Positions 1,925-41,804 of a stretch of 64,000 bases of DNA are shown here, piece by piece (the first letter of the stretch is position 1; the number at the start of each line of letters is the position of its first letter). The notes under the pieces were generated by a model, which was given only the letters and a program-made list of their open reading frames with translations, was not told where the DNA came from and did not search any database. This DNA is from Streptomyces sp. Ag109_O5-1 (lineage in GTDB: Bacteria > Actinomycetota > Actinomycetes > Streptomycetales > Streptomycetaceae): the NCBI RefSeq assembly GCF_003814875.1, contig NZ_RKQF01000001.1, positions 7,068,001 to 7,132,000 of the forward strand. Reading direction: 5' to 3'. Made by a program: the position numbers and the translations under genes.

Positions 1925-2830
1925 ATGCCTTCGAACGCCTCCGGTACCGGCACCTCCGGTACGGCCGACAAGAACGCGGCACCGCCGCTCCCGGAACCCC
2001 TCCGGGTGCCGGTCGCCGACTCCCACACCCACCTCGACATGCAGTCCGGCACCGTCGAGCAGGGCCTCAGGAAGGCCGCGTCGGTGGGGGTGACGACCGT
2101 CGTCCAGGTCGGCTGCGACATCAAGGGCTCCCGGTGGGCGGCCGAGACCGCCGCCGCGCACGAGAACGTCCACGCGACCGTCGCCCTGCACCCCAACGAA
2201 GCCCCGCGCATCGTCCACGGCGACCCCGACGGCTGGTCCCGGCAGGGCGCCCGCACGGCGGGCGGCGACACCGCGCTGGACGACGCCCTCGCCGAGATAG
2301 ACCGGCTGGCGGGGCTGCCCCAGGTCAGGGGTGTCGGTGAGACCGGTCTCGACTACTTCCGCACCGGGCCCGAGGGCAAGGCCGCCCAGGAGCGCTCCTT
2401 CCGTGCCCATATCGAGATCGCCAAGCGGCACGGCAAGGCCCTCGTCATCCACGACCGGGACGCCCACGCCGACGTGCTGCGCGTCCTCAAGGAGGAGGGC
2501 GCCCCCGAGCGGACCGTGTTCCACTGCTACTCCGGGGACGCCGAGATGGCCGAGGAGTGCGCCCGCGAGGGTTACTTCATGTCCTTCGCCGGCAACGTCA
2601 CCTTCAAGAACGCCCAGAACCTGCGGGACGCCCTCGCCGTCGCCCCGCTCGAACTGGTCCTCGTGGAGACCGACGCACCCTTCCTGACCCCGGCGCCGTA
2701 CCGCGGACGGCCCAACGCGCCGTATCTCATTCCGATCACGGTGCGCGCGATGGCCGCCGTGCGCGGTATCGACGAGGACGCGCTGGCGACGGCCCTGGGC
2801 GCGAACACGGCCCGTGCCTTCGATTACTGA
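1925..2830 (+). CDS. TatD family metal-dependent hydrolase/DNase
   Basis: This 301-residue TIM-barrel amidohydrolase belongs to the TatD family, whose members act as metal-dependent DNases or related phosphohydrolases. Visible metal-site motifs are DSHTHLDM near residue 35, the GETGLDY strand near residue 138, VIHDRDAH near residue 175, HCYSG near residue 200 and ETDAPFLTP near residue 250. An N-terminal extension of about 30 residues is low in complexity. ATG 1925 lies 6 nt after TAGGAT, which points to a leaderless mRNA. The exact substrate is not visible. In this neighbourhood it precedes the Rpf and rsmA genes. Confidence 0.92.
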   Translation: MPSNASGTGTSGTADKNAAPPLPEPLRVPVADSHTHLDMQSGTVEQGLRKAASVGVTTVVQVGCDIKGSRWAAETAAAHENVHATVALHPNEAPRIVHGDPDGWSRQGARTAGGDTALDDALAEIDRLAGLPQVRGVGETGLDYFRTGPEGKAAQERSFRAHIEIAKRHGKALVIHDRDAHADVLRVLKEEGAPERTVFHCYSGDAEMAEECAREGYFMSFAGNVTFKNAQNLRDALAVAPLELVLVETDAPFLTPAPYRGRPNAPYLIPITVRAMAAVRGIDEDALATALGANTARAFDY

Positions 2831-2845
2831 GAGTGCACATAACGT

Positions 2846-2853
2846 AACCGGTT
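2846..2853. promoter_or_regulatory. AACCGGTT palindrome upstream of rpf gene
   Basis: An 8-bp perfect palindrome lies inside a locally A+T-rich stretch of the 156-bp tatD-rpf gap. It may mark the rpf promoter or an operator. I could not recognise the conserved elements of a cyclic di-AMP (ydaO-type) riboswitch here. Confidence 0.25.
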
Positions 2854-2986
2854 TATAACGCTCGCGAGGGCTCCCTCGGAGCTGGGTCGCGACTGTGAGT
2901 AGTCGTGCCGCTTTGGAGAGTGACTGGCACTCCGCTAGGTTCTGGGGCCCGATCCGGACCCCTCTGGCCCCCTGGAGCGTGTCGGC

Positions 2987-4576
2987 GTGAGCACATCGCA
3001 GTACGAGACGTTTGGCGCGTACGACCCCTATGGTGCGCCCGGCGTGCGCGGGCAGTACGGCGCGCATGGGCATGGCGTGCCGGGCATGCCTGGAGTTCAT
3101 GGTGTGCCCGGTGCTCACGGTGCGCCGGGCGCGAGGGGTGCGTACGGGGAGCAAGGCGGGTATCACGCACCCGGAGCGAACGGCGCACCTGTCGTGAACG
3201 GCATGAACGGCATGAACGGCGTGAACGGCGTGAACGGCGTGCACGACTCCGCGACGCTGGGATATGGCGCGGTCTACGGGAGCGGCGATACGTACCGTCC
3301 GGCGTACGAGGTCTCGGCGGGAGCGGGAGGTGCGTCGGCGGCGGCGCGCGCTCACGTGAGTGAGCCGGTGCTTCCACGGCAGGGCGAGCGCGTGCCGGAA
3401 GGCAGGGCGCGTGCGGCGGAGGCGCGCGCTGTCGTGGGACGGCGGGCCGCGCGCCGGCGGAAGGCGCGGTACACCCAGCGCCCGGAGTCCGCCGTACGCC
3501 GGCTGCTGCCGCAGGCCCTGGTCGTCGCGTTCCTCGCCGGCGGCACCACCGCGTTCCTCGCCAAGGACAAGGCGATCGAGCTGACCGTCGACGGCAGGCC
3601 GCGCACCCTGCACACGTTCGCCGACGACGTGACCGGCCTGCTGGCCGAGGAGGGTGTGCGGGTGGGGGCGCACGACGCGGTGGTGCCCGCCCGCGGCGCG
3701 GCCCTGGCCAGCGGGGACGAGGTCGCGGTGCGCTACGGCCGCCCGGTCCGGCTCACCCTGGACGGCCGGCGGCGCGAGGTGTGGACGACGGCGAGCACGG
3801 TGGAGGGGGCGCTCCGACAGCTGGGGGTGCGTGCCGAGGGCGCATACCTGTCGACCTCGCGCTCCCAGAACATCGGTCGCGCCGGGCTGGCGCTCGACGT
3901 GCGCACCGAGCGCACCGTCACGATCCTGGCGGACGGCCGGACCCGCACCATCCGCACCAACGCGGCGACCGTCGGCGAGGCCGTCGAGGAGGCCGGGATC
4001 ACCCTGCACGGTCAGGACACCACCTCCGTCCCGCCGGGCGACTTCCCGCGCGACGGGCAGACGGTGACCGTGCTGCGCGTCAAGGGCAGCAGGGAGGTCC
4101 GCGAGGAGGTGATCCCCTTCGAGGTGCGGCGGACGCAGGACCCCACGCTGTTCAAGGGGACCGAGGTGGTCGAGCAGCTCGGCCGGCCCGGGCTGCGCCG
4201 GGTCACGTACTACCTGCGGTCCGTCAACGGCGTCCGGCAGAAGCCGCACCGCGAGACGTCCGAGCTGGTGCGCGAGCCGCGCGCGCAGCTGGTGAAGGTC
4301 GGCACCAAGCCGCACCCGGACTCCGTGAAGGGAGCCGACGGCCTGAACTGGCACGGTCTCGCCGTCTGCGAGTCCGGCGGCCGCCCGCACGCGGTGGACT
4401 CCTCCGGGACGTACGGCGGGCTCTACCAGTTCGACACGCGCACCTGGCACAGCCTCGGCGGCAGCGGGCGCCCGCAGGACGCGCCGGCCGGGGAGCAGAC
4501 GTTCCGTGCGAAGAAGCTCTACGTGAGCCGCGGGGCCACCCCCTGGCCGCACTGCGGGGCGCGACTGCACGGGTGA
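2987..4576 (+). CDS. rpfB: Resuscitation-promoting factor (RpfB-type) muralytic protein
   Basis: This is a cell-wall lytic transglycosylase-like factor associated with germination and resuscitation. The order in the 529-residue product is: a glycine-rich N-terminus with GxPGxxG-like pieces and an [15 protein letters not shown] run (about residues 1-90); a basic stretch; one membrane segment near residues 172-191; DUF348 units; a G5-like domain ending about residue 410; and the C-terminal Rpf domain ([11 protein letters not shown]...[12 protein letters not shown]) with the catalytic Glu at about residue 462. GTG 2987 has a weak GGAG SD. The RpfB label rests on the DUF348/G5/Rpf order. The long cytoplasmic N-terminus is unusual. 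Confidence 0.9.
3193..3242 (+). repeat. 9-bp coding tandem repeat in rpf gene
   Basis: Five near-identical 9-bp units (AACGGCATG/GTG type) encode the NGM/NGV run in the N-terminal region of the Rpf protein. Its in-frame unit length would allow length variation without a frameshift. Confidence 0.7.
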
Positions 4577-29889: not shown

Positions 29890-30507
29890 TCAGGAGTTGT
29901 ACGTGCTTTGCGCCCGCTCCAGCCCCTCGGTCACCAGCGCCTCCACCGCGTCGGCCGCCCGGTCCACGAAGTAGTCCAGTTCCTTGCGCTCGGCCGAGGA
30001 GAAGTCCTTCAGCACGAAGTCGGCGACCTGCATACGACCCGGAGGGCGCCCGATCCCGAACCGCACCCGGTGGTAGTCCGCCCCCATCGCCTTCGTCATC
30101 GACTTCAGCCCGTTGTGGCCGTTGTCCCCGCCGCCCAGCTTCAGACGGAGCACGCCGTAGTCGATGTCCAGCTCGTCGTGGACCGCGACGACATTGGCGA
30201 GCGGCACCTTGTAGAAGTCCCGCAACGCGTTCACCGGCCCGCCGGACAGGTTCATGAACGACATCGGCTTGGCCAGGATCACCCGCCGGTTCGCCGGCCC
30301 CGGCGCCCCGATCCGCCCCTCCACGACCTGCGCCTGCGCCTTCCCGGCCCGCTTGAACTTCCCCCCGATCCGCCCGGCGAGCAGATCCGCCACCATGAAA
30401 CCGACGTTGTGCCGGTTCGCCGCGTACTCGGGACCCGGGTTCCCGAGCCCGACGATCAGCCAGGGGGCGTTGGCGGGCGAGGCGCCTGCGGGGGTGGTCA
30501 CGTGCAT
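29890..30507 (-). CDS. pth: Peptidyl-tRNA hydrolase
   Basis: Pth cleaves peptidyl-tRNAs released from stalled ribosomes, recycling tRNA. The 205-residue enzyme shows [19 protein letters not shown] with the catalytic His near residue 33, [11 protein letters not shown] near 79, HDELDIDYG near 110 and [12 protein letters not shown] near 125. ATG 30507 has an AAGGAG SD 4 nt upstream. It follows rplY on the - strand after 74 bp, within the conserved rplY-pth pair. Confidence 0.97.
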
Positions 30508-30581
30508 GTCTCCTTGATACGCGCCAGCCGCCGCTCCCGGAAGGAAGCAGCGGCTGACGAACGATGGAACGAAGGTGAGGA

Positions 30582-31178
30582 TCAGGCCTCGGCGGCCTCT
30601 TCGCCCGCGGCCTCTTCGCCCGCGGGGGCCTCCTCCGCCTGCGCGGCCAGAACCTGGAGGACGACCGCGTCCTCCTCGACGGCCAGCGTCACGCCGGACG
30701 GCAGGACGATGTCCTTGGCGAGGACGGAGGCACCGGCCTCCAGGCCCTCGACGGAGACGGTGACGGCCTCGGGGATGTGGGTGGCCTCGGCCTCGACCGG
30801 CAGCGCGTTCAGGACGTGCTCCAGCAGGTTGCCGCCGGCGGCCAGCTCACCCTCGGTGTGGACCGGGATCTCGACCGTGACCTTCTCGCCACGCTTGACC
30901 AGCAGCAGGTCGACGTGCTCCAGGAAGCCCTTGATCGGGTCGCGCTGCACGGACTTCGGGATCGCCAGCTCGTTGGTCTTGCCGTCGATGTCCAGGGAGA
31001 TCAGGACGTTCGGCGTACGCAGCGCGAGCAGCAGGTCGTGGCCCGGAAGGGTCAGGTGGATCGGGTCCGAACCGTGGCCGTACAGCACACCGGGAACCTT
31101 GGCGTCACGACGGATACGACGCGCGGCACCCTTGCCGAACTCGGTGCGCGTCTGGGCGGCGAGCTTCACCTCGGACAT
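30582..31178 (-). CDS. rplY: 50S ribosomal protein L25 (general stress protein Ctc type)
   Basis: This 198-residue L25/TL5/Ctc protein binds 5S rRNA. It has an N-terminal L25 beta-barrel ([24 protein letters not shown], residues 12-35), the C-terminal TL5 domain (from about residue 95) and an Ala/Glu-rich acidic tail. ATG 31178 has a GAGGAG SD with 8-nt spacing; an earlier in-frame ATG at 31187 is less favourable. Confidence 0.95.
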
Positions 31179-31264
31179 GTGGATCACTCCTCGTAGAGGT
31201 AGATACGGACGTGGTCACCCGGCCACGAACGGCCTGCTACGAAGAGCGCGTCGATAACGGAGGC

Positions 31265-31316
31265 GTGGCCTCCCTCGCCGAGCAACTTCAGAAGTCTACT
31301 CGGCGCGAGAGGCCAC
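31265..31316 (-). terminator. Long imperfect hairpin between prs and rplY
   Basis: GTGGCC...CGCCGAG (31265-31282) pairs with CTCGGCG...GGCCAC (about 31299-31316). A second smaller stem, GCGCCC/GGGCGC, lies at 31335-31349. On the - strand both follow prs and precede rplY, so they probably terminate or attenuate the prs transcript. Confidence 0.65.
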
Positions 31317-31391
31317 AGGAAAATCGATCATCAGCGCCCTCCGGGCGCGGGCGATCATGCAGAAGCGTTTTTACAGCTCACTGCTCGCTGT

Positions 31392-32372
31392 TCACTGCTC
31401 GTCGAACAGGCTCGTCACCGAACCGTCCTCGAACACCTCACGCACCGCACTCGCGATCGTCGGCGCGATCGACAGCACCGTGATCTTGTCCAGATCCCGG
31501 CTCAGCTCACCCGGCGTCGGCAGCGTGTTCGTCAGCACGAACTCGCTCACCCGCGAGTTCTTCAACCGGTCCGCCGCAGGACCGGAGAGAACGCCGTGCG
31601 TGGCGGTCACGATGACATCCTCCGCACCGTGCGCGAACAGCGCGTCCGCGGCCGCACAGATGGTCCCACCCGTGTCGATCATGTCGTCGACCAGGACACA
31701 CACCCGGCCCTCGACCTCACCCACGACCTCGTGGACGGTCACCTGGTTCGCCACGTCCTTGTCACGCCGCTTGTGCACGATGGCGAGCGGCGCACCCAGC
31801 CGGTCGCACCAGCGGTCCGCCACCCGCACCCGGCCGGCGTCCGGGGACACGATCGTCAGCTTGTCCTTCTCCACCTTCGAGCCCACGTAGTCCGCCAGCA
31901 GCGGAAGCGCGAACAGGTGGTCCACCGGACCGTCGAAGAACCCCTGGATCTGGTCCGTGTGCAGGTCCACCGTCAGAATCCGGTCCGCACCCGCCGTCTT
32001 CATCAGATCGGCGATGAGCCGCGCCGAGATCGGTTCACGGCCCCGGTGCTTCTTGTCCTGCCGCGCGTAACCGTAGAACGGCACAATCACCGTGATGGAA
32101 CGCGCCGACGCACGCTTCAACGCGTCGATCATGATCAACTGCTCCATGATCCACTGGTTGATCGGAGCCGTGTGGCTCTGGATCACGAAGCAGTCGGCAC
32201 CACGCGCCGACTCCTGATAGCGGACGTAGATCTCACCGTTCGCGAAGTCGAAGGCCTTCGTCGGGACGACCCCGACACCCAGCTGGTGGGCGACCTCCTC
32301 GGCAAGCTCGGGGTGGGCGCGGCCGGAGAAGAACATCATCTTCTTCTCGCCGGTCGTCTTGATCCCGGTCAC
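31392..32372 (-). CDS. prs: Ribose-phosphate pyrophosphokinase
   Basis: Prs makes PRPP from ribose-5-phosphate and ATP for purine, pyrimidine, His and Trp synthesis. The 326-residue enzyme contains FYGYARQDKKHRGREP near residue 101, DLHTDQIQGFF near 135 and the PRPP-binding loop VLVDDMIDTGGTICAA near 226. GTG 32372 has a GAGGAG SD 8 nt upstream. It lies downstream of glmU on the - strand (141 bp), the usual glmU-prs order. Confidence 0.97.
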   Translation of the reverse strand: MTGIKTTGEKKMMFFSGRAHPELAEEVAHQLGVGVVPTKAFDFANGEIYVRYQESARGADCFVIQSHTAPINQWIMEQLIMIDALKRASARSITVIVPFYGYARQDKKHRGREPISARLIADLMKTAGADRILTVDLHTDQIQGFFDGPVDHLFALPLLADYVGSKVEKDKLTIVSPDAGRVRVADRWCDRLGAPLAIVHKRRDKDVANQVTVHEVVGEVEGRVCVLVDDMIDTGGTICAAADALFAHGAEDVIVTATHGVLSGPAADRLKNSRVSEFVLTNTLPTPGELSRDLDKITVLSIAPTIASAVREVFEDGSVTSLFDEQ

Positions 32373-32513
32373 AGCACTGTCTCCTCAGAGGTGTCTCAGC
32401 CGTACAGCTGGATCTCCAGCGCCCTGTGTGCCGGGCGCGGGAGGCCGAATCAGCTGGTTAGGTGCGGGTGTGCACTTATCACGGTACGACGTCTTCGGCG
32501 CACCTGTTTCCGG

Positions 32514-33962
32514 TCAGTCCTCGCTCGCGCCCTGCCGGGAAGCCGCCTCGGCAGCCTTCGCCGCCGCGCTGCCCGGCCGCTTCCGGGCCACCCAACCCTC
32601 GATATTCCGCTGCTGACCGCGGGCCACGGCCAGCGAACCGGGCGGCACATCCTTCGTGATCACAGAGCCGGCAGCGGTGTACGCACCGTCCCCGACCGTG
32701 ACAGGAGCCACAAACATGTTGTCCGAACCCGTCTTGCAGTGCGACCCGACCGTCGTGTGGTGCTTGCTCTCCCCGTCGTAGTTCACGAACACGCTCGCCG
32801 CACCGATGTTCGAGTACTCGCCGATCGTCGCGTCACCCACATACGAGAGATGCGGAACCTTCGTCCCCTCCCCGATCGACGCGTTCTTCGTCTCCACGTA
32901 CGTACCGATCTTGCCCTTCGCCCCCAGCCGGGTCCCCGGCCGCAGGTAGGCATACGGTCCCACGGACGCGTCCGCACCGATATGAGCGGAATCGGACACC
33001 GTGTTGTCCACCCGCGCCCCCGCACCGACCCTGGTGTCCTTCAGCCGGCTGTTCGGCCCGACCTCCGCACCCTGCCCCACATGCGTGTCACCCTGCAGCA
33101 GGGTGTTGGGGTTGACCACCGCATCCTGCTCGAACGTCACCGTCACATCCACCCACGTCGTGGCCGGATCCACCACCGTCACACCCGCGAGCATCGCCCG
33201 CTCCAGCAACCGGTCGTTGAGAATCCGCCGCGCCTCCGCCAGCTGCACCCGGTTGTTGATCCCGGCGATCTCCCGGTGATCCCCGGCCACCGAGGCCCCC
33301 ACCCGATGCCCGGCCTCCCGCAGGATCCCCAGCACATCGGTCAGGTACTCCTCACCCTGACTGTTGTCCGTCCGCACCTTCCCCAGCGCGTCCGCCAGCA
33401 ACTGCCCGTCGAACGCGAACACACCCGAGTTGATCTCCCGGATCGCCCGCTGCGCGTCGGAGGCGTCCTTGTGCTCCACGATGGCCGTCACGGCCCCGGA
33501 GACCTCGTCGCGCACGATACGGCCGTAACCGGTCGCGTCCGGAACCTCCGCCGTCAGCACGGTCACGGCGTTGCCGTCGGCGTGGTGGGTCCCGGCGAGC
33601 GCCGTCAGCGTCTCCCCGGTCAGCAACGGGGTGTCCCCGCAGACCACGACCACGGTCCCGTCGACCGCTCCGCCCAGCTCCTCCAGCGCCATCCGCACGG
33701 CGTGCCCGGTGCCGTTCTGCTGCTCCTGCACGGCGGTGCGGACGGCGGCGTCGACCTCGCCGAGATGCGCGGCGACCTGCTCACGCGCGTGCCCCACGAC
33801 GACGACCAGGTTCTCGGGGTCCAACTCACGGGAGGCGGCGAGCACATGACCCACCAGGGAACGGCCACAGAGCTGATGCAGGACCTTGGGTGTGGCCGAC
33901 TTCATACGGGTGCCCTCACCCGCTGCGAGAACGACGACGGCTGCCGGGCGAATGGCGCTCAC
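32514..33962 (-). CDS. glmU: Bifunctional UDP-GlcNAc pyrophosphorylase/GlcN-1-P acetyltransferase
   Basis: GlmU acetylates glucosamine-1-phosphate and couples it to UTP, giving UDP-GlcNAc for peptidoglycan. The 482-residue protein has the nucleotidyltransferase motif [11 protein letters not shown] near residue 13 and [12 protein letters not shown] near 105. From about residue 260 left-handed beta-helix hexapeptide repeats include [14 protein letters not shown] and [16 protein letters not shown] 33962 follows a GAAGGG SD; the open frame upstream crosses the terminator and tRNA gene and is not coding. Confidence 0.97.
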
Positions 33963-34037
33963 GGATGTGCCCTTCGGCTTTTGGACGGGTGGGGACATCC
34001 GCAGGATACCGGGGCGTTTCACGGGGGACATGGGAGC

Positions 34038-34063
34038 GGGCCCTGACGGTGCTGTCAGGGCCC
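34038..34063 (-). terminator. Hairpin terminator after tRNA-Gln
   Basis: GGGCCCTGAC (34038-34047) and GTCAGGGCCC (34054-34063) form a perfect 10-bp stem with a 6-nt loop, directly 3' of the tRNA and upstream of glmU. Confidence 0.85.
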
Positions 34064-34073
34064 GAACCGAGCA

Positions 34074-34148
34074 TGGCTCCCCCGCCAGGACTCGAACCCG
34101 GACAGATGGCACCAAAAGCCACAGTGCTGCCAATTACACCACGGGGGA
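34074..34148 (-). tRNA. tRNA-Gln (TTG)
   Basis: On the - strand the gene reads from TCCCCCG at 34148 to the matching CGGGGGA, a G discriminator and an encoded CCA at 34074. The D-arm contains TGGTGTAATTGGCAGCA, the anticodon loop CTTTTGG gives anticodon TTG, and the T-arm GGTTCGAACCC is intact. The 7-bp acceptor stem is perfect. It lies 23 nt downstream of an HTH protein gene on the same strand, so it may be read from that gene's promoter. Confidence 0.96.
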
Positions 34149-34171
34149 ATATTCTCGACCAAACCGGACAT

Positions 34172-35038
34172 TCAGTCAGGTCGCCGAGTGGCGCCTCCTA
34201 CTATGCCGTACCAGGCGCCTTCCATGCGACGGTACAAGTCGGCGCTCTGGCGGACGTAGATCACGAGGCATCCGTGATAGGAGTCGCCGGTGTTCTTCCG
34301 GACCGTCCTGGGGTTGTGCTTCTTCAGAGTTGCCTTGCTGAACGCGGATACCTCGACGTCCGCGACGTCTGCCCAGAACTCCTCGGCGGCCCGCACGTCC
34401 GCCGTCTCGTGAATGCTGACCCGGAGGGTCAGGCGGTCCCGCGTCACCTCGAGTAGGTCGAGCCACCGGAGGAAGAGCTTGATCACGTTGGGGTCGCTGT
34501 TGATGAACTGCAAGACCTCGGTGCGCCGGTACGGCTTGTCCTTGGAGCCTTCGGCCCAGTAGAGGGTGACCCCTGCGACGAATAGCTCCCGGTCCGACAG
34601 CTCTCCGATGGACGCTGCGGCTTCCCGCTTCGTTGCTGCGCGTTCGAGGTCTCGCGAGGCGTGGAGTCGCGCCAGTCCCGCGTTCATGCGCGCTCGCTGC
34701 TCCTCGGGTGTGCATGTGGGTTCTGGATGCGGCAGATCTCGCACCCAGAGCGAGACCGAGCTCTTTGAGCACCCCAACTCGGCTTGGATCTGGTTGTACG
34801 TCCAACCCTGGAGCCGTAGCTCCCGCGCCCTGGCCCTCAGGTCGTCCTTCGCGTTCGGTCGCTTCGTCCAGTCCGGCGGTGGCTCGCCCTCCAGGAGGCG
34901 GTTGAGGATGTCGTTGTTGTCGACGTGGAGGCGGTCGCGGATCTGGCGTCGGCTGAGTCCTGCGCGCCGCAGCGCGACCGCCTGCTCCCGCAGTCCCTCG
35001 AAGTTCTGGTACTTGCCTTGTGGATGTGCCATGGGCAT
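34172..35038 (-). CDS. HTH protein with LAGLIDADG/WhiA-like endonuclease-type C-terminus
   Basis: This 288-residue protein has two resolvase-like helix-turn-helix segments (AVALRRAGLSRRQIRDRLHV near residue 21; ELRLQGWTYNQIQAELGCSK near 73). Its C-terminal domain has GVTLYWAEGSKDK near residue 155, FINSDPNVIKLFLRWL near 175 and SAFSKATLKKHNPRTVRKN near 230, a pattern reminiscent of LAGLIDADG-fold proteins that recognise DNA. It could be a homing-endonuclease relative or a DNA-binding regulator. Two close ATGs (35038, 35032) are possible starts. The gene ends 23 nt before tRNA-Gln. A palindrome 12 nt upstream may be its operator. Family assignment is tentative. Confidence 0.65.
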   Translation of the reverse strand: MPMAHPQGKYQNFEGLREQAVALRRAGLSRRQIRDRLHVDNNDILNRLLEGEPPPDWTKRPNAKDDLRARARELRLQGWTYNQIQAELGCSKSSVSLWVRDLPHPEPTCTPEEQRARMNAGLARLHASRDLERAATKREAAASIGELSDRELFVAGVTLYWAEGSKDKPYRRTEVLQFINSDPNVIKLFLRWLDLLEVTRDRLTLRVSIHETADVRAAEEFWADVADVEVSAFSKATLKKHNPRTVRKNTGDSYHGCLVIYVRQSADLYRRMEGAWYGIVGGATRRPD

Positions 35039-35049
35039 ACCGTCCGGGC

Positions 35050-35064
35050 GGAATGCGTCATTCC
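35050..35064. promoter_or_regulatory. Palindrome GGAATGCGTCATTCC
   Basis: Perfect 6-bp arms flank a 3-bp centre, 12 nt upstream of the HTH/endonuclease-like gene. A 14-of-15 match, GGAATACGTCATTCC, lies at 54311-54325 upstream of the phospholipase gene. Confidence 0.5.
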
Positions 35065-35186
35065 GGGTTCGAACGGGTGTGGTTCAGCAGTTCGAGGGAT
35101 TCCGGAGGGTTTCGGTGCTGTTCGGTTACGGAGTGTGGTGTAGGGCAGTAGACGAAACTCACCGGAAAAGCCCACCCTCGCGCCCG

Positions 35187-35192
35187 TAGGCT
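35187..35192 (+). promoter_or_regulatory. -10 hexamer TAGGCT for leaderless histidine kinase gene
   Basis: TAGGCT ends 6 nt before ATG 35199. There is no SD. Confidence 0.6.
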
Positions 35193-35198
35193 GGACGC

Positions 35199-36518
35199 AT
35201 GACCACGACGGGGGCAGACCACGCGACGGCCTTGACCGGGCCGTGGTGGTGGTCGCGGTGGCGTAGTGCGGTTCTGGACGGGGCGCTCGCCCTGGTGTCG
35301 GCGCTGGAGTGCGGCGCCGAGGGGATTCCGTTCGCGCGGGACGCGGGCGTCCCGCTGTCGGCGGGGATCGTGTTCGGTTTACTGGCCGGTTCCGTGCTGC
35401 TGCTGCGCCGGAAGTGGCCGATAGCCGTCGTGCTGGTGTCGATCGCGATCACGCCGGCCCAGATGGGCTTCCTGATGGGGATCGTCGGCCTGTACACCCT
35501 GGCCGCGGCGGAGCTGCCGCGGCGGATCATCGTGGCGCTGGCGGGGATGTCGCTGGTGGGCACGATGATCGTGACGTTCGTGCGGGTGAAGCAGGACATG
35601 GCGCGGGGCGATCTGACGCTGGGGGACTGGTTCGTGCCGTTCGCGGCGGTCACGACGTCGCTCGGGCTGACCGCTCCGCCGTTGCTGCTGGGGTTGTACG
35701 TGGGTGCGCGGCGGCGGCTGATGGAGAGTCTGCGGGAGCGGGCGGACAGTCTGGAGCGGGAGCTGCAGTTGCTCGCGGAGCGGGCGGAGGAGCGTGCGGA
35801 GTGGGCGCGGGGTGAGGAGCGGACGCGGATTGCGCGGGAGATGCATGACGTGGTCGCGCATCGGGTGAGCCTGATGGTGGTGCATGCGGCGGCGTTGCAG
35901 GCGGTGGCGCGGAAGGATCCGGAGAAGGCGGTGCGTAACGCTGCGCTGGTGGGGGACATGGGGCGGCAGGCGTTGACGGAGTTGCGGGAGATGTTGGGGG
36001 TGTTGCGTTCGGGGGAGAGTGTGCGGCGTCGTGCGGCGTCGTCGGCGTCTTCCGCGGCGGTGCCGTTGGCCGCGGTGGGGGTGGCGGCGGCGGTGGCGGC
36101 TTCGCGGGTGGCGGAGGAGGAGGGGCCGTGGCTGTCGGAGCTGGAGGAGTTGATCGGGCAGTCGGCGGCGGCCGGGATGGCGGTGGATCTGTCGGTGGAG
36201 GGGGAGGTGCGGTCGTATGCGGTGCAGATCGAGCAGACGGCGTACCGGGTGGTGCAGGAGGCGTTGACGAACGTCCACAAGCATGCGGCGGGTGCGAAGA
36301 CGCATGTGCGGCTCGCGCATCGGGGGGTGGAGATCGCGATGCAGGTGGAGAACGAGCCGCCGCCGGAGCCGGCGTCGGCGGCGTCGGTGGGGCTGCCGTC
36401 GGGTGGGAACGGTCTGGTGGGGATGCGTGAGCGGGTGCTGGGGCTGGGCGGGGTGTTTGTGTCGGGGCCGACGGATGCCGGGGGTTTTCGGGTGTCGGCG
36501 GTGATTCCGGCGGTCTGA
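35199..36518 (+). CDS. Orphan NarL-type sensor histidine kinase
   Basis: This 439-residue membrane kinase has five to six hydrophobic segments over residues 20-180, a coiled-coil linker (RERADSLERELQLLAERAEE), the HisKA_3 dimerisation motif REMHDVVAHRVSL with the phospho-acceptor His at about residue 216, an Ala-rich insertion near 290, and an HATPase region ending in GGNGLVGMRERVLGLGG near residue 407. No response regulator adjoins it. It is transcribed towards the toxin-immunity island but no functional link can be shown. Confidence 0.92.
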   Translation: MTTTGADHATALTGPWWWSRWRSAVLDGALALVSALECGAEGIPFARDAGVPLSAGIVFGLLAGSVLLLRRKWPIAVVLVSIAITPAQMGFLMGIVGLYTLAAAELPRRIIVALAGMSLVGTMIVTFVRVKQDMARGDLTLGDWFVPFAAVTTSLGLTAPPLLLGLYVGARRRLMESLRERADSLERELQLLAERAEERAEWARGEERTRIAREMHDVVAHRVSLMVVHAAALQAVARKDPEKAVRNAALVGDMGRQALTELREMLGVLRSGESVRRRAASSASSAAVPLAAVGVAAAVAASRVAEEEGPWLSELEELIGQSAAAGMAVDLSVEGEVRSYAVQIEQTAYRVVQEALTNVHKHAAGAKTHVRLAHRGVEIAMQVENEPPPEPASAASVGLPSGGNGLVGMRERVLGLGGVFVSGPTDAGGFRVSAVIPAV

Positions 36519-36530
36519 GCGTTCGTCCGG

Positions 36531-37013
36531 TCAGGTGTGGGTGGTGAGCCGGACGGGTTCGACGCCTGCGATGAGTGTGGTGAGGGCGTGGTCGATGTCG
36601 GGGCCGACGTACCAGTCGCCGGTGTGGTCGAGGGTGTAGATGCGGCCGTCGGCGTCGATGGCGAGGAGGGAGTGGGTGTCGGTTTCGGCGCCGAGGGGGC
36701 AGACCTCGGTGTCGAGGGCGCGGCCGAGGTCGCCGAGGGTGCGGGCGAGGTGGAGGCCGTGGAGGGGGTCGAGGTGGAGGGTGGCGGGGGCGATCTGGCG
36801 GCCGGGGCCGGTGGGGGTGATGTGCAGGCCGCCGAATTCGGCCCAGGCTTCGACGGCGGCGGGGAAGACGGTGTGCCGGTGTCCGGCGGGTGAGGTGTGC
36901 TCGCGGAGGGTGTCGGCCCAGAACTCGGCTTGTTTTATGTCCCAGCGTCCGGGTTGCCAGCCGGCGGTGCGCAGGGCGGTGTCGACGGGCGCGGAGAAGC
37001 GGGTGGGGTGCAT
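36531..37013 (-). CDS. SUKH-3 domain immunity protein
   Basis: This 160-residue cytoplasmic protein is of the SUKH-3 type, a family of immunity proteins against polymorphic toxins. It starts with RFSAPVDTALRTAGWQPGR, then AVEAWAEFGGLHI near residue 56, and a C-terminal AIDADGRIYTLDHTGDWYVGPDIDHAL. ATG 37013 has an AAGGG SD. It lies 80 bp downstream of a YwqJ-type deaminase gene on the same strand, the expected toxin-then-immunity order. Confidence 0.85.
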   Translation of the reverse strand: MHPTRFSAPVDTALRTAGWQPGRWDIKQAEFWADTLREHTSPAGHRHTVFPAAVEAWAEFGGLHITPTGPGRQIAPATLHLDPLHGLHLARTLGDLGRALDTEVCPLGAETDTHSLLAIDADGRIYTLDHTGDWYVGPDIDHALTTLIAGVEPVRLTTHT

Positions 37014-37040
37014 CTGCCCTTCGTTCGTGTGTGGTGCGGG

Positions 37041-37061
37041 TGCGGGTGCGGGTGCGTTCGC
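37041..37061. repeat. GTGCGG hexanucleotide run
   Basis: Three to four GTGCGG units lie in the 80-bp gap between the deaminase and SUKH-3 genes. They may allow slippage changes in spacing. Confidence 0.5.
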
Positions 37062-37093
37062 GGGTGTGTGCTGTGGGGGCGTGGGTGCGGGCG

Positions 37094-37630
37094 TCAGTCG
37101 CCGGTGGCGGGGTCGACGACGTGGACGCCGAAGTGGGCGGTGAGGGCGGTGCAGGCCCGGCAGGGGGCGGCGAAGCTGCCGTGCAGGGGGTCGCCGTCCT
37201 CGCGTATCCGGCGGGCGGTGAGTTTGGCCTGCTTGAGGGCTCTGCGGGCTTCGCCGTTGGTCATGGGTTTGCGGAGGGCGCGTTTGCTGCGGGCTGCGTC
37301 GGCGGAGCTGATGTGCCGTGAGATGAGGATGGCTTCGGCGCAGCGGCCGGTGAAGCGGTCGCGTTGTCCGCTGGGGAGGGTGTCGAGGAATTCCTGGACC
37401 AGCGGGTGGAGCGGGGGCGGCTGGTCGCCGCGGGCGGCGGTGCCGGTGAGGGTGGCGCCGCGGACGGAGAGGGCGGCGGCGACGGTGGGCAGGATGCCGT
37501 CGCGGCGGTGCTGGAGGATGGGGGTGGGGGGTGTTTCGGTGCTGCTCCAGCCGATGCGGGGGTCGCCGTGGGCGGCGCTGTGGCCGGCGCCGGACATGGC
37601 GGTGTGTGGTCCCGTCTGTGTTGCGTTCAT
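37094..37630 (-). CDS. YwqJ-type deaminase domain protein (toxin-like)
   Basis: This 178-residue protein has the two zinc motifs of the nucleotide/nucleic-acid deaminase superfamily: C97-A-E99 in FTGRCAEAILISRH and P156-C157-x2-C160 in APCRACTALTAHFGV. Residues 1-70 are low in complexity and carry no signal peptide or secretion domain. YwqJ-type domains are known as toxin tips of polymorphic toxins. ATG 37630 has a strong GGGAGGGGAAG SD. Its likely immunity protein follows. Whether it is an exported toxin, an internal effector or an orphan tip is not visible. Confidence 0.8.
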   Translation of the reverse strand: MNATQTGPHTAMSGAGHSAAHGDPRIGWSSTETPPTPILQHRRDGILPTVAAALSVRGATLTGTAARGDQPPPLHPLVQEFLDTLPSGQRDRFTGRCAEAILISRHISSADAARSKRALRKPMTNGEARRALKQAKLTARRIREDGDPLHGSFAAPCRACTALTAHFGVHVVDPATGD

Positions 37631-37800
37631 GATCGTCTTCCCCTCCCGGGGATCCCCCCGAAAATCACAGACTGCCAAATCCCGTGGCGGGTGCGGTAGC
37701 TGGGGCGGTGCGACACGCCCGGGTTTGGGCAGGCTGTCACGGCGGGGTGACGGCTGGTCACGGAAGTGGAGGGCCGGTGACCGGGGTTCGTGTACCGCAT

Positions 37801-37806
37801 AGGCTG
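37801..37806 (+). promoter_or_regulatory. -10 candidate TAGGCT for the + strand toxin-immunity genes
   Basis: It lies in the 296-bp gap between the divergent deaminase and nuclease-SUKH genes, about 120 nt upstream of ATG 37927. I see no clear -35. The rest of the gap holds no recognisable gene. Confidence 0.35.
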
Positions 37807-37926
37807 TCGCCACCGCGATGGGCGCGGTCGACGCGTCTGGGACGTGGGAGAGACAGCCGGATACGGGCCGTGGCGCGCCTTGGGGTGCGGTTTCGGTTCG
37901 TACGAGTGCCGCAGGGGGCATCCGTC

Positions 37927-38952
37927 ATGACGACAGGTCGGCTCGGGCTGGGGGCACCGCTCAGCGGCCAGGCCGGGGGACAGGCCGCGCCGCCTAACGC
38001 GGCCTATGCCGGGCAGGTCGTGCACTTCCCGGATCCGGTCCGGGCGGCACGTCACCCGAGAGGGGTACGTGTTGACGAGCGTGGCTACCCCGATTTCTCG
38101 CCCTACGCGCGTGCGGCCGCGGAGATCGCGGATCCGCCGGAGGGTTTCGGTGTCGACGAGTTGCGGCTGACGGACTTCGTGTCCGCGAACGCGGTGTTGT
38201 CGGCTTCCGGGCACGAGTTGTGGGACACGGTGCCGGCGGTGGCGACGCCGCACGGGTGGACCTGGCATCACGTGGTGGGTTCGCGGCGGCTGGAGTTGGT
38301 GCCGGTCGAGGTGAAGGCGTTGCTGCGGCATCACGGTGGGCTGGTGACGACGCGGGTGGACCAGGGCAAGCGCGGTACCCGTCCGTTGCAGGAGACACGG
38401 CCGGCGCACTTCGGGTTGCCGAAGTCGGGTGTGGCGGTGTCGGAGCAGCAGGTGCAGGGGGTCGAGGAGGACCTGGGGTACCGGCTGCCGGGTGCGTACC
38501 GGTCCTTCCTGAAGGCGGCGGGCGGGTGTGCGCCGGTGGGTACGGCGCTGAGCGCGGAGCTCGGACTGCTGCTGGACCAGCCGTTCTTCACGGTTCGCGA
38601 CGAGGCCGCGGTCAACGACCTCGTGTACGTCAACAAGTGCCTGCGTGACCATCTGACCAAGGACTACCTGGGCGTCGGTTTCGTGCAGGGCGGTCTGCTG
38701 GCGGTGAAGGTGAAGGGCGACCGGCTGGGTTCGGTGTGGTTCTGCGCGTACGACGATGTGCGCGACGTGGATCCGTCGTGGTCGTCGGCGGAGCGCGTGG
38801 AGCGGCTGTTGCTGCCGTGCGGTGAGGACTTCGACGTGTTTCTGTCGCGACTGGCGGGTTCTCCGCCGGAGTTGGAGACGGTGGCGAACCTGATGGTCGA
38901 CGGTGGTTTCGCGCGTGCCGTCCCGGTCTCTTCTGTTGGCTCGGGGGAGTGA
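37927..38952 (+). CDS. WHH/LHH nuclease domain fused to SMI1/KNR4 (SUKH) immunity domain
   Basis: The 341-residue protein appears to join a toxin domain to an immunity domain. Residues 35-140 resemble the HNH/ENDO VII-fold WHH/LHH nucleases: GYPDFSPYA near 54, GWTWHHV with the His pair at 114-115, ELVPVEVKALLRHHGG near 123. Residues 171-320 form an SMI1/KNR4 (SUKH-1) domain: VEEDLGYRLPGAYRSFLKAAGG, GSVWFCAYDDVRDVDPSW, DFDVFLSRL. There is no signal peptide. ATG 37927 has an AGGGGG SD. Its stop overlaps the next GTG by 4 nt. A nuclease held inactive by its own SUKH domain, or a processed toxin, are possible readings. Confidence 0.78.
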   Translation: MTTGRLGLGAPLSGQAGGQAAPPNAAYAGQVVHFPDPVRAARHPRGVRVDERGYPDFSPYARAAAEIADPPEGFGVDELRLTDFVSANAVLSASGHELWDTVPAVATPHGWTWHHVVGSRRLELVPVEVKALLRHHGGLVTTRVDQGKRGTRPLQETRPAHFGLPKSGVAVSEQQVQGVEEDLGYRLPGAYRSFLKAAGGCAPVGTALSAELGLLLDQPFFTVRDEAAVNDLVYVNKCLRDHLTKDYLGVGFVQGGLLAVKVKGDRLGSVWFCAYDDVRDVDPSWSSAERVERLLLPCGEDFDVFLSRLAGSPPELETVANLMVDGGFARAVPVSSVGSGE

Positions 38953-41804
38953 GTCTCGGCATGGTGACGTTCGCGCAGGCGCAGGAGCGCGCGGAGGAGT
39001 GGATCAACGGGGACGTGCCGGCGTACCAGCATCGTGAGGTGCGGGTCCGGGAGTTCGGCCTCGGGTTCGTGGTGTGGGGCGAGGACCGTGCGGAGGGTCC
39101 GCGTTCGGACGCGGGTGGGCAGCGGTTGGTCATCGCCCGGGACAGCGGTGAGGCCACGCTGTGGCCGGCGTTGCCGGTGGGCGAGGTGATCCGCCGGTAC
39201 GAGGAGGAGTACGGCCGTGAGGCGGAGGTCGCCGACGCGGTGCCGGCGGCGGCCCGGGTGGACCTGAACCAGACGTCGTTCCTGTTGAGCCCGCCGGAGT
39301 GGCTCCAGGAGGCGGCGGACAAGCTGGGGATCCCGGATCGCCGGTCCGGGGGCGACGGGGCGTCGGCCGGTGCCGGTTCCGGCACCGGTGGGCTTGCGGA
39401 GACGCAGGCCGGGGTGCCTGCGGCCGGTTCGGCGGGGAGCGGTGGTGCTTCCTGGCCGGCGGCCGGTGCGGGTGCGGGTTCGGGTGGTGTCGGAGCGCGT
39501 GGGGGCGCGGGCGCGCCCGCCGGGGCGCAGGGGGCGTCGAGTGCGCCGGGTGCGCCCGAGGTGCCCGCCGGCGCGACTCCTTGGGCCGGTACGGACACGA
39601 ACGCCGATGCTGGTGAGGACCGTTCCGTCCCGCTGCCCGCGACCGTGTTCGCGCCGCCGCTGAGCGACGCCGACGACGGTGCCCTGGGCGATGCGGAGAC
39701 GGCGCTGATGGCGGGGGGCAGCCAGCTGCCGCGCACGACGGAGGCTCCGGCGCTCGACCGCCCGGGTGTGCCCGGAGCGCACGGTAGGGCTGGCGTGCCC
39801 GGTGCGCCGCAGGACAGCACGCCTCCGCCGCCTCCGCCGGGTGTCCCGTCGTACGGCTACCCGCAGGGACCGGCGGCTCCGGCCGCACCTCCGCAGGCTC
39901 CCGCGGCTCCGCCCGCGCCGTCTTCCTACGGCTATCCGCAGGCTCCTGCCGCCCCGGGCTACGGCTACCCGCAGGCGCCGGCCGGTGTGTCCGACGCGCC
40001 CCGGCCTCCGGCGGGTCCGGCCGCTTCGGGCCGGTCGCTCGCACCGAACGCCAGTGACATAGCCGACGCCGCGACGAGCAAGGCCGCGCCTCCTCCGCGC
40101 AGGGCGCGCGGTGCGGCGGGCGCGCCTCCTCCACCGCCGGGCGTTCCGGGAACGCCGGGTGCCCGCCCTGGGGGCACGCCTCAGCCGTCGGCGCCGGGTG
40201 CGCCTGGCGCGCCGGGCGCACCGGTCAGCGGGTATGCGCCGACGCAGCTGGTGTCATCGTTGGGTCCCGGGGGACCCGCGGGGCCGACGGGTTGGGGTGC
40301 GGGGCAGGCGCCGGGCGCGCAGACTCCGCCGGGTGCCCCCGACTCGCCCCGTGCGCCGGGTGCTCCGGGCGGTCCGCCCCCCGGCGTTGATCACGCGGCC
40401 ACGATGCTGGCCGGCCCGGGCGGGGGCGCGCAGCAGCCTCCAGGCGCCCCTGGCGTACCCCCCGCGCCGGGCGTACCCCCCGCGCCGGGCGCACCGCAGC
40501 CCCCGAGCGCCCCAGGCGCACCTTTCGCCTCCGGTGCACCGCAAGCCCCTGGCGCCCCGGGCGCACCGCGGCCGTCCGGCGCCCCTGGTGCCCCTGGCAT
40601 GCCTCCCGTGCCCGGCGCGCAGGGCCCTGCCGGTGGCGCGGGTGGCGCGGGTGGCGCGGTTCACCACGCGCAGACCGTGCTGGCCGGGCCTCCGGTGGGT
40701 CCCCCGGGCGCCGCCCCCGGTATGCCGCCGGGCGCTCCGCAGATGCCGCCGCCGATGCCGGCCGGTGCGATGCCGCCGCCCCCTGCCCCCGGCCAGCAGC
40801 AGCCGGCGTACGGCTACCCGCAGCAGGGGCAGCCGACCGTGGGCCCGGGCTATCAGGCGGTGCTGCGCTACCGCGCGCAGGACGGTTCGGAGCAGCAGCT
40901 GATCCGGCGTTCGGCGCCGGGGACGCCGCATCCGGAGTGGCAGATCTTCCATGAGCTGCGGGCGATGAACGTGCCGCCGGACCAGGTGCTGGAGCTCCAC
41001 ACGGAGCTGGAGTCGTGCGAGCTGCCGGGTGCCTACTGTGCCCGGATGATCCGGGAGCAGTGGCCCCAGGCGCGGCTCGCGAGCATCGCGCCGTACGGGA
41101 CGGACCACGCGAGCCGGCAGCAGGGGATGCGGCAGTTGCTGGCGCACCAGGGGGAGTTGCACCAGGTGGCGGCGGGTCCCGCGCGGCCCGCGCCGGTGCG
41201 GGCGCCGTTGCCGCAGGTGCAGGCCGCGCCGCCGATCCCGCCGGAGGCGATCGCGCAGGAGCTGGCGGCGGCGTTCGGGCCGGGCGTGTTCCGGTTCGAG
41301 CAGGTGGCGGTGGAGCGGCAGGGTGTGCCGCCGATCGTGGCGCACACGCTGGTCGTGGCGGGGCTGCCGCTGGACATGGGACCGTTCTTCTGGGCGCAGG
41401 CCCAGCCGGGCCGTCCGGTGCCGACGCTGGCGGAACTGGCGCAGGAGCGCGGGGTGCAGCCGGCGCCGGACGCGGGGTCGTACCTCGTCATGGGCACCGA
41501 CTTCGGCAAGGCGGTCTGTGTGCAGTACGGGACCGCGAACATCGTGGCCGTGCCGGTGGAGGCGGGGCCGGGCGGGGCGTCCGTGCCGCCGCAGTTCGTC
41601 AACACCGGGCTGCCGGAGTTCGTGCGCTGTCTGGCGCTGCTGGGCCGGATGTGGCGGCTCAGGTTCGGCCTGAATCAGGAGCAGGCGGGCCGCTGGACCG
41701 TCGACTTCCAGGCCCAGTTGGCCTCCCTGGACCCGGCGGCGCTCGGTTCGCCGGAGAGCTGGTGGTCGGTGCTGCTGGAGCAGATGTGGGACGGGCTGCT
41801 GTAG
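38949..41804 (+). CDS. Multidomain Imm35-like / linker / deaminase-like / SUKH-4-like protein
   Basis: This 951-residue protein has four parts. Residues 1-95 resemble an Imm35/YrhB-type immunity domain (TFAQAQERAEEWINGDV, FGLGFVVWGED, GEATLWPALPVGEVI). Residues 130-620 are a Pro/Gly/Ala-rich repetitive linker with many GAPGAP and YGYPQ motifs. Residues 634-715 look like a toxin-type deaminase: H661-P-E663 and C690-x6-C697 in ESCELPGAYCARM. Residues 750-951 resemble SUKH-4 (PPIVAHTLVVAGLPLDMGPFFW, GSYLVMGTDFGKAVCV, WWSVLLEQMWDGLL). The GTG start is coupled to the preceding stop. No export signal is seen. Domain names are by motif recognition only. Confidence 0.75.
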   Translation: MSLGMVTFAQAQERAEEWINGDVPAYQHREVRVREFGLGFVVWGEDRAEGPRSDAGGQRLVIARDSGEATLWPALPVGEVIRRYEEEYGREAEVADAVPAAARVDLNQTSFLLSPPEWLQEAADKLGIPDRRSGGDGASAGAGSGTGGLAETQAGVPAAGSAGSGGASWPAAGAGAGSGGVGARGGAGAPAGAQGASSAPGAPEVPAGATPWAGTDTNADAGEDRSVPLPATVFAPPLSDADDGALGDAETALMAGGSQLPRTTEAPALDRPGVPGAHGRAGVPGAPQDSTPPPPPPGVPSYGYPQGPAAPAAPPQAPAAPPAPSSYGYPQAPAAPGYGYPQAPAGVSDAPRPPAGPAASGRSLAPNASDIADAATSKAAPPPRRARGAAGAPPPPPGVPGTPGARPGGTPQPSAPGAPGAPGAPVSGYAPTQLVSSLGPGGPAGPTGWGAGQAPGAQTPPGAPDSPRAPGAPGGPPPGVDHAATMLAGPGGGAQQPPGAPGVPPAPGVPPAPGAPQPPSAPGAPFASGAPQAPGAPGAPRPSGAPGAPGMPPVPGAQGPAGGAGGAGGAVHHAQTVLAGPPVGPPGAAPGMPPGAPQMPPPMPAGAMPPPPAPGQQQPAYGYPQQGQPTVGPGYQAVLRYRAQDGSEQQLIRRSAPGTPHPEWQIFHELRAMNVPPDQVLELHTELESCELPGAYCARMIREQWPQARLASIAPYGTDHASRQQGMRQLLAHQGELHQVAAGPARPAPVRAPLPQVQAAPPIPPEAIAQELAAAFGPGVFRFEQVAVERQGVPPIVAHTLVVAGLPLDMGPFFWAQAQPGRPVPTLAELAQERGVQPAPDAGSYLVMGTDFGKAVCVQYGTANIVAVPVEAGPGGASVPPQFVNTGLPEFVRCLALLGRMWRLRFGLNQEQAGRWTVDFQAQLASLDPAALGSPESWWSVLLEQMWDGLL

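Follow-up and report, generated by a model that had tools for sequence, protein, structure and literature searches.

A candidate LAGLIDADG-type homing endonuclease gene linked to the exchange of divergent tRNA-Gln(UUG) alleles in Streptomyces

Introduction

Free-standing endonucleases of phages are described, in an excerpt of PMC2988022, as spreading by intronless homing, in which flanking DNA is co-converted. One of them, SegB of phage T4, acts in tRNA regions and clusters there according to excerpts of two sources (PMC2988022; PMC13096335), and its homologues co-localise with tRNAs in the excerpt of the second (PMC13096335). Here we describe a bacterial chromosomal locus of Streptomyces sp. 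Ag109_O5-1, in which an open reading frame (ORF) coding for a helix-turn-helix (HTH) part and a LAGLIDADG-like domain lies just upstream of a tRNA-Gln gene. The locus is contained in a stretch of 64,000 nucleotides (nt) of contig NZ_RKQF01000001.1 (positions 7,068,001 to 7,132,000), which is referred to as the window and in which all coordinates are given.

Comparison of the locus revealed exchange of a block of DNA, linkage between ORF and tRNA, a pattern of gain and loss of the gene, higher tRNA turnover where the gene is present, a conserved element embedded in the coding sequence and conserved residues of active-site type in the protein. The interpretation that we favour, with a probability of roughly 55%, is homing: the product of the ORF would be a free-standing homing endonuclease of LAGLIDADG type, by which rival alleles of tRNA-Gln are replaced with the divergent allele that accompanies it.

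Results

A divergent tRNA-Gln(UUG) in a conserved gene order

The ORF starts with ATG and is followed downstream by tRNA-Gln and then glmU. The tRNA has the anticodon TTG (UUG-reading), and the tRNA called by ARAGORN also matched Rfam RF00005 (34077-34148, 53.3 bits). As a preliminary description of this DNA had stated, the ORF ends 23 nt before the tRNA on the same strand, the gap being exactly 34149-34171. The features used in the comparison of loci are the following, with the name of the left-flank gene presumably correct.

34172..35038, minus strand: HTH and LAGLIDADG-like ORF, 288 amino acids (ORF call; at the same locus in 80/80 kept relatives)
34895..35002, minus strand: first HTH unit, residues 13-48 (AlphaFold2 helices; absent from the 5 short copies)
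34736..34852, minus strand: second HTH, HTH_23, residues 63-101 (Pfam and AlphaFold2 model)
34074..34148, minus strand: tRNA-Gln(UUG), type 7 (ARAGORN, Rfam and type clustering)
34064..34731, minus strand: exchange block, comprising the ORF from about residue 103, the leader, the tRNA and about 10 nt (change-points of the window and locus L150, at -583 and +84 relative to the tRNA 5' end)
32514..34004, minus strand: glmU, right flank with host-like history, start approximate (ORF list and locus comparison)
35199..36518, plus strand: divergent sensor-kinase-like gene, left flank with host-like history (present in 144/150 loci)

The genome of origin contained a single copy of the ORF, and no second tRNA-Gln(UUG) was found in it: the remaining BLAST matches were tRNA-Gln(CUG), and among six matches of an anticodon-to-T-loop pattern scan the sole tRNA-Gln(UUG) was the one at this locus. 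From general decoding knowledge, together with these searches of one genome, the UUG-reading tRNA-Gln is expected to be essential. In a collection of genomes, 116 stretches encoded a relative of the ORF; 80 of these were kept and the order ORF, tRNA-Gln(UUG), glmU was found in all of them, so that the arrangement is not due to chance. The preliminary description was right about the tight tRNA linkage and the mobile-element flavour. Integrative elements at tRNA 3' ends are marked by an integrase and a duplicated tRNA 3' end. Without a search aimed at such elements, no integrase-like ORF was seen by eye in 30000-40000 and no second close tRNA copy among the BLAST matches; the ORF lies on the 5' side of the tRNA.

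For the comparison, 149 glmU loci from Streptomyces were combined with the window, and 147 of these 150 loci had a called tRNA-Gln. Outside the set of 147 were one locus at a contig edge (L202) and two glmU loci in which no tRNA-Gln was called (L288 and L292). The gene was full in 70 loci, short in 5 (first HTH missing), broken in 13, reduced to a C-terminal remnant in 34 and absent from 25.

Genes for tRNAs are normally among the slowest-changing genes. At this locus tRNA-Gln(UUG) formed 8 clusters at 22% distance, here called types, which differ within the genus by 22-46% on average; the median pairwise identity over the 147 loci was 0.70 and the minimum 0.50, with small noise from ARAGORN ends that differ by 1-4 nt among loci. 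Control tRNAs, one per genome, had median identities of 0.90 for tRNA-Gln(CUG) (13 genomes) and 0.97 for tRNA-Glu(CUC) (12 genomes). The control genomes were those whose best match to the tRNA of the window was a CUG tRNA, genomes picked for their lack of a close match to that tRNA, and the median of 0.64 for their UUG tRNAs (10 genomes) is biased to divergence, the value of 0.70 being unbiased. A tRNA-Gln(CUG) query matched 157/159 genomes at E <= 1e-6, with 86-100% identity among the matches listed. In the control regions (L106-L119) tRNA-Gln(CUG) often occurred in tandem arrays with tRNA-Glu(CUC), with a minimum identity of 0.83 compared with 0.96 for tRNA-Glu.

Exchange of the tRNA together with the adjacent half of the ORF

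Pairwise distances were compared for 69 of the 70 full loci, the kinase-like gene not being found in the remaining one. The distances of the left gene agreed with those of the second half of glmU (correlation 0.71), whereas the ORF correlated less with these two flanks (0.36 and 0.32, respectively) and the tRNA not at all (-0.06 and -0.01). Within the ORF, the first 300 nt retained part of the host signal (0.16-0.45 with glmU) and the rest less (0.05-0.29). The tRNA type changed 39 times over the 70 gene-bearing rows of the glmU tree, which is near random (shuffled mean 44.0, minimum 38 in 100 shuffles), and 25 times on the ORF tree (shuffled mean 43.9). The nearest neighbour according to ORF nt 300 to the end had the same tRNA type in a fraction of 0.565 (shuffled mean 0.167; 0/2000 shuffles as high). 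The corresponding fractions for ORF nt 0-300, the left gene and glmU were 0.333, 0.319 and 0.290 (shuffled mean 0.17), also slightly above chance (as high in 11, 16 and 42 of 2000 shuffles, respectively).

The borders of the exchanged segment were located by change-points in 53 close pairs, consisting of 33 pairs with different tRNAs, 17 with the same tRNA and 3 intermediate pairs that were kept outside the medians; the pairs share loci and are not independent, so that pair counts are descriptive. In the 33 different-tRNA pairs the median left change-point was at profile position 101, about residue 103 in the window, and within 98-106 in 20/33. The right change-point had a median of 23 nt past the tRNA 3' end and fell between +7 and +79 in 31/33, the other two being located within the tRNA or at its start. 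Inside the block mismatch was 0.35, compared with 0.10 outside. The block of about 0.7 kilobases (kb) is well illustrated by one pair (L241/L239), whose flanking genes are 97% identical and in which identity drops to 60-87% from -600 to +100 of the tRNA start. The left border lies just after the second HTH, so that the C-terminal half of the ORF tends to change together with leader and tRNA, and the exchange of these parts as a block is well supported by the compared sequences. Co-conversion of flanking markers is indicated here by a comparison of species, not by a cross.

Such a pattern might also arise at a passive recombination hot spot, where crossovers in the homologous HTH part and in glmU bring in foreign alleles, with the gene as a neutral passenger and replacement of the tRNA as a by-product. 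Streptomycetes exchange chromosomal DNA by mating, the block borders coincide with the return of homology and the flanks follow the host, as a hot spot would have it. However, the ratio of nonsynonymous to synonymous substitution rates (dN/dS) of 0.14 in intact copies and the invariant catalytic-type residues argue for a function of the protein, and turnover is higher with the gene. We consider a passive hot spot improbable.

Turnover of the tRNA with and without the gene

The nearest neighbour of each locus was determined by the flanks, within its own class of gene-bearing or gene-less loci, and tRNAs with identity below 0.8 were counted as different; 57 of the 59 gene-less loci could be used, the kinase-like gene not being found in the rest. 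The nearest neighbour carried a different tRNA for 45/69 gene-bearing loci (65%; median flank identity 0.903) compared with 11/57 gene-less loci (19%; median flank identity 0.883), a difference with p = 3e-7 in Fisher's test between loci that are not independent. At flank identities above 0.94 the different-tRNA pairs were 4/6 with the gene and 0/5 without, and at flank identities of 0.88-0.91 they were 30/40 and 2/19, respectively.

The variety of types could instead reflect diversifying selection on the tRNA itself, if rare tRNA-Gln(UUG) alleles have an advantage against tRNA-cutting toxins or phage defences and spread by ordinary recombination, while the protein hitchhikes or joins the conflict. 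Compatible with such selection are the presence of about 8 types, some of them near the tRNAs of other genera (91% identity between a type-3 tRNA and the tRNA of L329, from another family, and 93% between type 8 and the tRNA of L336, from another genus), the variability of tRNA-Gln(CUG), which also exceeds that of tRNA-Glu, and the scatter over the host tree of gene-less types too (12 changes compared with 12.7 after shuffling). It leaves unexplained, however, why turnover is higher with the gene (45/69 vs 11/57) and why viral relatives of the ORF lie beside various tRNAs, and we find it an unlikely cause.

Architecture and predicted fold of the protein

The preliminary description had pointed out two HTH segments, and these were confirmed. 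Pfam matched HTH_23 at residues 63-101 (E = 1e-8), and an AlphaFold2 model of the protein (42 rows; predicted local distance difference test score, pLDDT, 87.7) shows three-helix units at 13-48 and at 63-99, followed by an alpha/beta domain at the C-terminus. Modelled alone (23 rows), the C-terminal domain had a pLDDT of 88.5 and a predicted template modelling score of 0.82. Its features are listed below.

34190..34603, minus strand: LAGLIDADG-like domain, residues 146-283 (VIA-align Z 7.3 for the whole protein and 7.0 for the domain alone; profile E 0.18)
34541..34552, minus strand: codons 163-166, with invariant E163 and K166 at the positions of E117 and K120 of I-DmoI (69/69 full copies; alignment)

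When the whole protein was aligned to known structures with VIA-align, the LAGLIDADG endonuclease I-DmoI occupied rows 1-12, 14 and 15 (best Z 7.3, root mean square deviation 2.8, 86 aligned). Row 13 was an HTH match, the next LAGLIDADG protein was the maturase bI3 (Z 5.0) and the next unrelated match of the C-terminal part had Z 5.3. With the domain alone I-DmoI took rows 1-15 (Z 7.0 to 5.8; the best with a deviation of 2.6 and 85 aligned) and the next unrelated fold followed at 5.0. YfiB and IspF, the top PDB matches in Foldseek, ranked under I-DmoI on re-alignment and were rejected. A profile of the domain compared with all PDB sequences had I-DmoI as the first 7 of 10 matches, with a weak E of 0.18, and its alignment paired E163 and K166 with E117 and K120 of I-DmoI, positions at which I-DmoI mutants are named in PDB titles. 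An acidic residue at the end of the motif helix and a lysine near it, as expected of LAGLIDADG homing endonucleases, are thus present. Both residues were invariant in 69/69 full copies and in all 19 rows of a second alignment (A2) covering other genera and a phage contig. The first alignment (A1) combined the window and a phage contig (L001) with 40 loci out of the 80 from genomes, and had been freed, among others, of L007 (stop inside the tRNA), L024 (early stop) and L043 and L069 (frame breaks). In 11 close pairs, in which several loci are reused, the median dN/dS was 0.14 for the ORF and 0.13 for glmU.

Other searches returned little for this part of the protein. The C-terminal domain alone had zero matches in Pfam (E <= 0.5) or PHROGs (E <= 0.01), a phmmer search of PDB with the single protein gave nothing useful, and no GIY-YIG match was obtained in Pfam, PHROGs or NCBIfam, libraries that also miss LAGLIDADG here. 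The ORF has one LAGLIDADG-type motif copy per chain, and no intron or intein was seen. The LAGLIDADG-reminiscent C-terminus of the preliminary description is therefore supported by the modelled structure and weakly by the profile, but not by Pfam, PHROGs or NCBIfam, and we regard a LAGLIDADG type of fold for this domain, as the models predict it, as probable.

A protein of this composition could also be a domesticated WhiA-like regulator of the tRNA or of glmU, co-evolving with an element in its own 3' end and without DNA cleavage. In WhiA of Streptomyces an HTH is joined to a degenerate LAGLIDADG domain (excerpt of PMC3781837), and the two HTH units and the adjacency to a tRNA would suit a regulator. 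Nevertheless, WhiA has lost key metal-binding and catalytic residues (same excerpt, PMC3781837), whereas E163 and K166 are invariant in the ORF, and the gene is not full-length in 77/147 loci at which the tRNA stays. A regulatory role of this kind appears quite improbable.

A promoter-like element within the 3' end of the ORF

The last codons of the ORF contain a bipartite promoter-like element, CGTCGC followed by GGCATAGT. The parts of the locus between this element and glmU are:

34226..34231, minus strand: CGTCGC, upstream box of the promoter-like element, codons 270-271 (codon usage 49/49)
34200..34207, minus strand: GGCATAGT, -10-like box within the ORF 3' end (119/147 loci, 54-79 nt upstream of the tRNA)
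34149..34199, minus strand: type-specific leader from the -10-like box to the tRNA (locus comparison)
34037..34064, minus strand: terminator-like G+C-rich hairpin between tRNA and glmU (sequence and fold, without shuffle control)

The -10-like box was kept in 54/54 gene-less or remnant loci of types 1, 2, 5 and 7, including 21/21 loci without a detectable remnant; the latter is the cleaner count, as the class of C-terminal remnants was itself detected through the GGCATAGT stretch. In the full ORFs of types 1, 2, 5, 7 and 8 the codons R270 CGT, R271 CGC, G278 GGC and I279 ATA were each found in 49/49, compared with 20 ORFs of types 3, 4 and 6, in which the four codons vary and ATA at 279 occurs in 1/20. 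These ORFs were counted by tRNA type, as the test of codon 279 is partly circular if they are classed by motif. Elsewhere in the 69 ORFs ATA makes up 14/727 Ile codons. The 28 loci without GGCATAGT are those of types 3, 4 and 6, and they have TAAGGT 16-18 nt before the tRNA (19 loci) or another TANNNT box seen by eye (9 loci), which we read as a putative second type of promoter.

Given that GGCATAGT is kept without the gene and that the codons are fixed, the tRNA looks like its own transcription unit, starting at a putative promoter inside the ORF 3' end. We name the element by its conservation, since no sigma-70-type site was detected at 33950-35300; CGTCGC and CATAGT are separated by an unusual spacing of 20 nt. 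Of the called tRNAs in 20 regions outside the genus, none has GGCATAGT within the preceding 119 nt. The 75 nt 3' of the tRNA fold below -15 kcal/mol in 147/147 loci (without shuffle control).

According to the preliminary description the tRNA may depend on the promoter of the gene, and a tRNA promoter mapped inside the gene was named as the result that would speak against this. The dependence is probably wrong: comparison with relatives that lack the gene, a check proposed in that description, left the element and the tRNA in place in all 54 loci mentioned above. What was found inside the gene is a putative promoter recognised by locus comparison, not a mapped transcript.

The leader seems to differ by type, possibly with different hairpins. 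At a distance of about 15-23 nt from the tRNA (window and L150-L298) there is ATGTCCG, mainly in types 5 and 7 (34164-34171 in the window), or CGGACAT in the opposite orientation, mainly in types 1 and 2.

Distribution of the gene and its relatives

An ORF match was present in 204/295 genomes of a sample of the genus. The distance from the start of the kinase-like gene to the tRNA had a median of 1046 nt for full loci, compared with 232 nt for loci without the gene, and presence of the gene changed 37 times on the glmU tree of 147 loci (a raw count, without shuffled baseline). Thus the gene is present or absent among relatives between conserved neighbours, the kinase-like gene on one side and tRNA-Gln and glmU on the other, as is characteristic of free-standing homing endonucleases.

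Outside the genus 20 regions were inspected (18 of 37 matching genomes and two from another search), and tRNA-Gln(UUG) lies 3' of the ORF in 18 of them, 17 of these 18 also with glmU; one region is cut by a contig edge. In another actinomycete (L339) the relative, at 2544-3329, is found directly 5' of tRNA-Asn(GTT) and tRNA-Met(CAT), not of tRNA-Gln. In several other families (L328, L330, L331, L334, L335, L338 and L340) an extra HTH-like piece appeared as a separate upstream match, as if the HTH had been duplicated or split by a frame change.

Distant relatives were also present on seven viral contigs from IMG/VR (L341-L347), which represent five distinct ones. All five have tRNA genes within about 200 nt, an adjacency that is less surprising than in bacteria since 4/5 carry several tRNAs near the relative. 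Three viral contigs have an HNH-type ORF nearby, as judged by eye, and for four viral relatives searched in PHROGs, matches of any strength were confined to the HTH part. A search of 50,697 phage records with the ORF gave no match at E <= 0.01. Phages were also considered as the source of the tRNA types, for types 1 and 3: the best phage matches of the type-1 tRNA were to a Caulobacter phage tRNA-Gln (82%), and the type-3 tRNA had partial matches only, to tRNA-Glu of the Streptomyces phages Hiyaa and Spocter. No donor was identified for these two types.

Discussion

If homing is the cause of the exchange, the locus would encode a site-specific endonuclease with an N-terminal HTH part that is co-inherited with its own divergent tRNA-Gln(UUG) allele. 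Donor chromosomal DNA would enter a strain, for instance by mating, and the endonuclease would cut the resident tRNA-Gln region unless sequence divergence protects that allele. In repair templated by the donor, crossovers in the conserved stretch that codes for the HTH part and immediately 3' of the tRNA would then replace everything between them in a single tract, namely the tRNA, its leader and the C-terminal half of the ORF. The cell would survive as the incoming tRNA is both functional and uncuttable. Later the nuclease gene may decay or be deleted, whereas the promoter-like element in its 3' end and the tRNA would have to stay. In this sequence of events it is DNA cleavage, its target, the drive, the direction of transfer and the promoter activity that we infer. 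An exchange that precedes gene loss would fit the scattered types of the gene-less loci. More tentatively, and with somewhat less than even odds, the locus may be a natural bacterial cleave-and-rescue element, in which a polymorphic nuclease half is paired with a cognate, cleavage-resistant tRNA-Gln allele as immunity, and which would be one member of a broader family, so far uncatalogued, of HTH-LAGLIDADG endonucleases that are linked to tRNAs and shared by phages and Actinomycetes.

Several observations weigh against homing by a LAGLIDADG-type nuclease. Regarding the fold, the I-DmoI entry 1b24 reached only Z 3.8 and a Z of about 7 is middling by the note of VIA-align itself (< 8); Foldseek searches of PDB and BFVD had no match at E <= 1e-3, and no LAGLIDADG model of Pfam, PHROGs or NCBIfam matched, the matches being of HTH type only. 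Regarding the block, 5 of the 17 same-tRNA pairs also diverge from profile position 98-106 onwards (median likelihood gain 18 compared with 117 in the others), and one pair with identical tRNAs (L185/L181) has an ORF 3' identity of 0.65. The linkage is partial, types 2 and 5 being scattered on the ORF tree (6 changes each for 7 and 6 rows, respectively), and the sharp block borders could merely mark where homology resumes. Regarding turnover, different-tRNA pairs at flank identities of 0.91-0.94 were about equal with and without the gene (7/16 vs 3/8). Without the gene, too, the tRNA types fit the host tree no better than shuffled labels do (12 changes in 59 rows; shuffled mean 12.7). Most gene-less loci are of type 7 (46/59), and their low turnover may in part be due to the particular backgrounds in which the gene is lost.

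The types of a single tRNA species, fixed in its position, thus have an almost random distribution on the host tree, whereas the two flanking genes are in agreement. Under the cleave-and-rescue reading a selfish gene would set the identity of the UUG-reading tRNA of the cell, with many turnovers within one genus. Homing, if it is the cause, would make the reshaping of core translation genes by selfish genes directly testable in common laboratory strains of Streptomyces. A promoter-like element kept within the coding sequence of a selfish gene can in addition account for 3' ends that outlast the death of the gene.

Comparison with known systems

Like SegB of T4 and intronless homing in general, the locus has a free-standing nuclease-like gene in a tRNA region (excerpts of PMC2988022 and PMC13096335). 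SegB is a phage-borne GIY-YIG protein, however, whereas the ORF is LAGLIDADG-like with an HTH and sits at one bacterial chromosomal locus, and the marker exchanged with it is the sole UUG-reading tRNA-Gln found in the genome. With no sign of GIY-YIG in libraries that also miss LAGLIDADG, and a modelled fold nearest to I-DmoI, the ORF was not filed as SegB. I-DmoI and the LAGLIDADG homing endonucleases provide the nearest solved fold and share the positions of E117 and K120; the ORF differs from them by the single motif copy per chain, the HTH in front, the apparent lack of an intron or intein and the lack of a library match.

WhiA resembles the ORF in combining an HTH with a LAGLIDADG-type domain in Streptomyces (excerpt of PMC3781837), but has the degenerate LAGLIDADG domain first and the HTH at the C-terminus. 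In the ORF this order is reversed, the catalytic-type residues E163 and K166 are kept, presence is patchy and a tRNA is linked, and an assignment to WhiA was rejected. Phage islands of homing endonuclease genes (HEGs) and HEG domain swapping, as outlined in an excerpt of PMC10448857, likewise have nuclease genes at the borders of exchanged DNA and shuffling of domains; here the exchange is chromosomal, covers less than 1 kb and has the nuclease half inside the block.

By analogy only, the locus can be compared with the engineered Cleave-and-Rescue and home-and-rescue drives (excerpts of PMC7951863 and PMC7968924), in which a nuclease is paired with a resistant functional copy of its target. 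The present system is natural and bacterial, would have a tRNA as the rescue copy and would rely on a putative cleavage; if homing is the cause, it would be a natural counterpart of these drives that acts on an essential-type RNA gene rather than on a protein gene. In a literature search made mostly without subscription papers, no title or abstract start among the matches listed describes tRNA exchange of this kind. What is new is the setting, a chromosomal locus at which an essential-type tRNA is exchanged as a presumably resistant allele and half of the nuclease travels with it.

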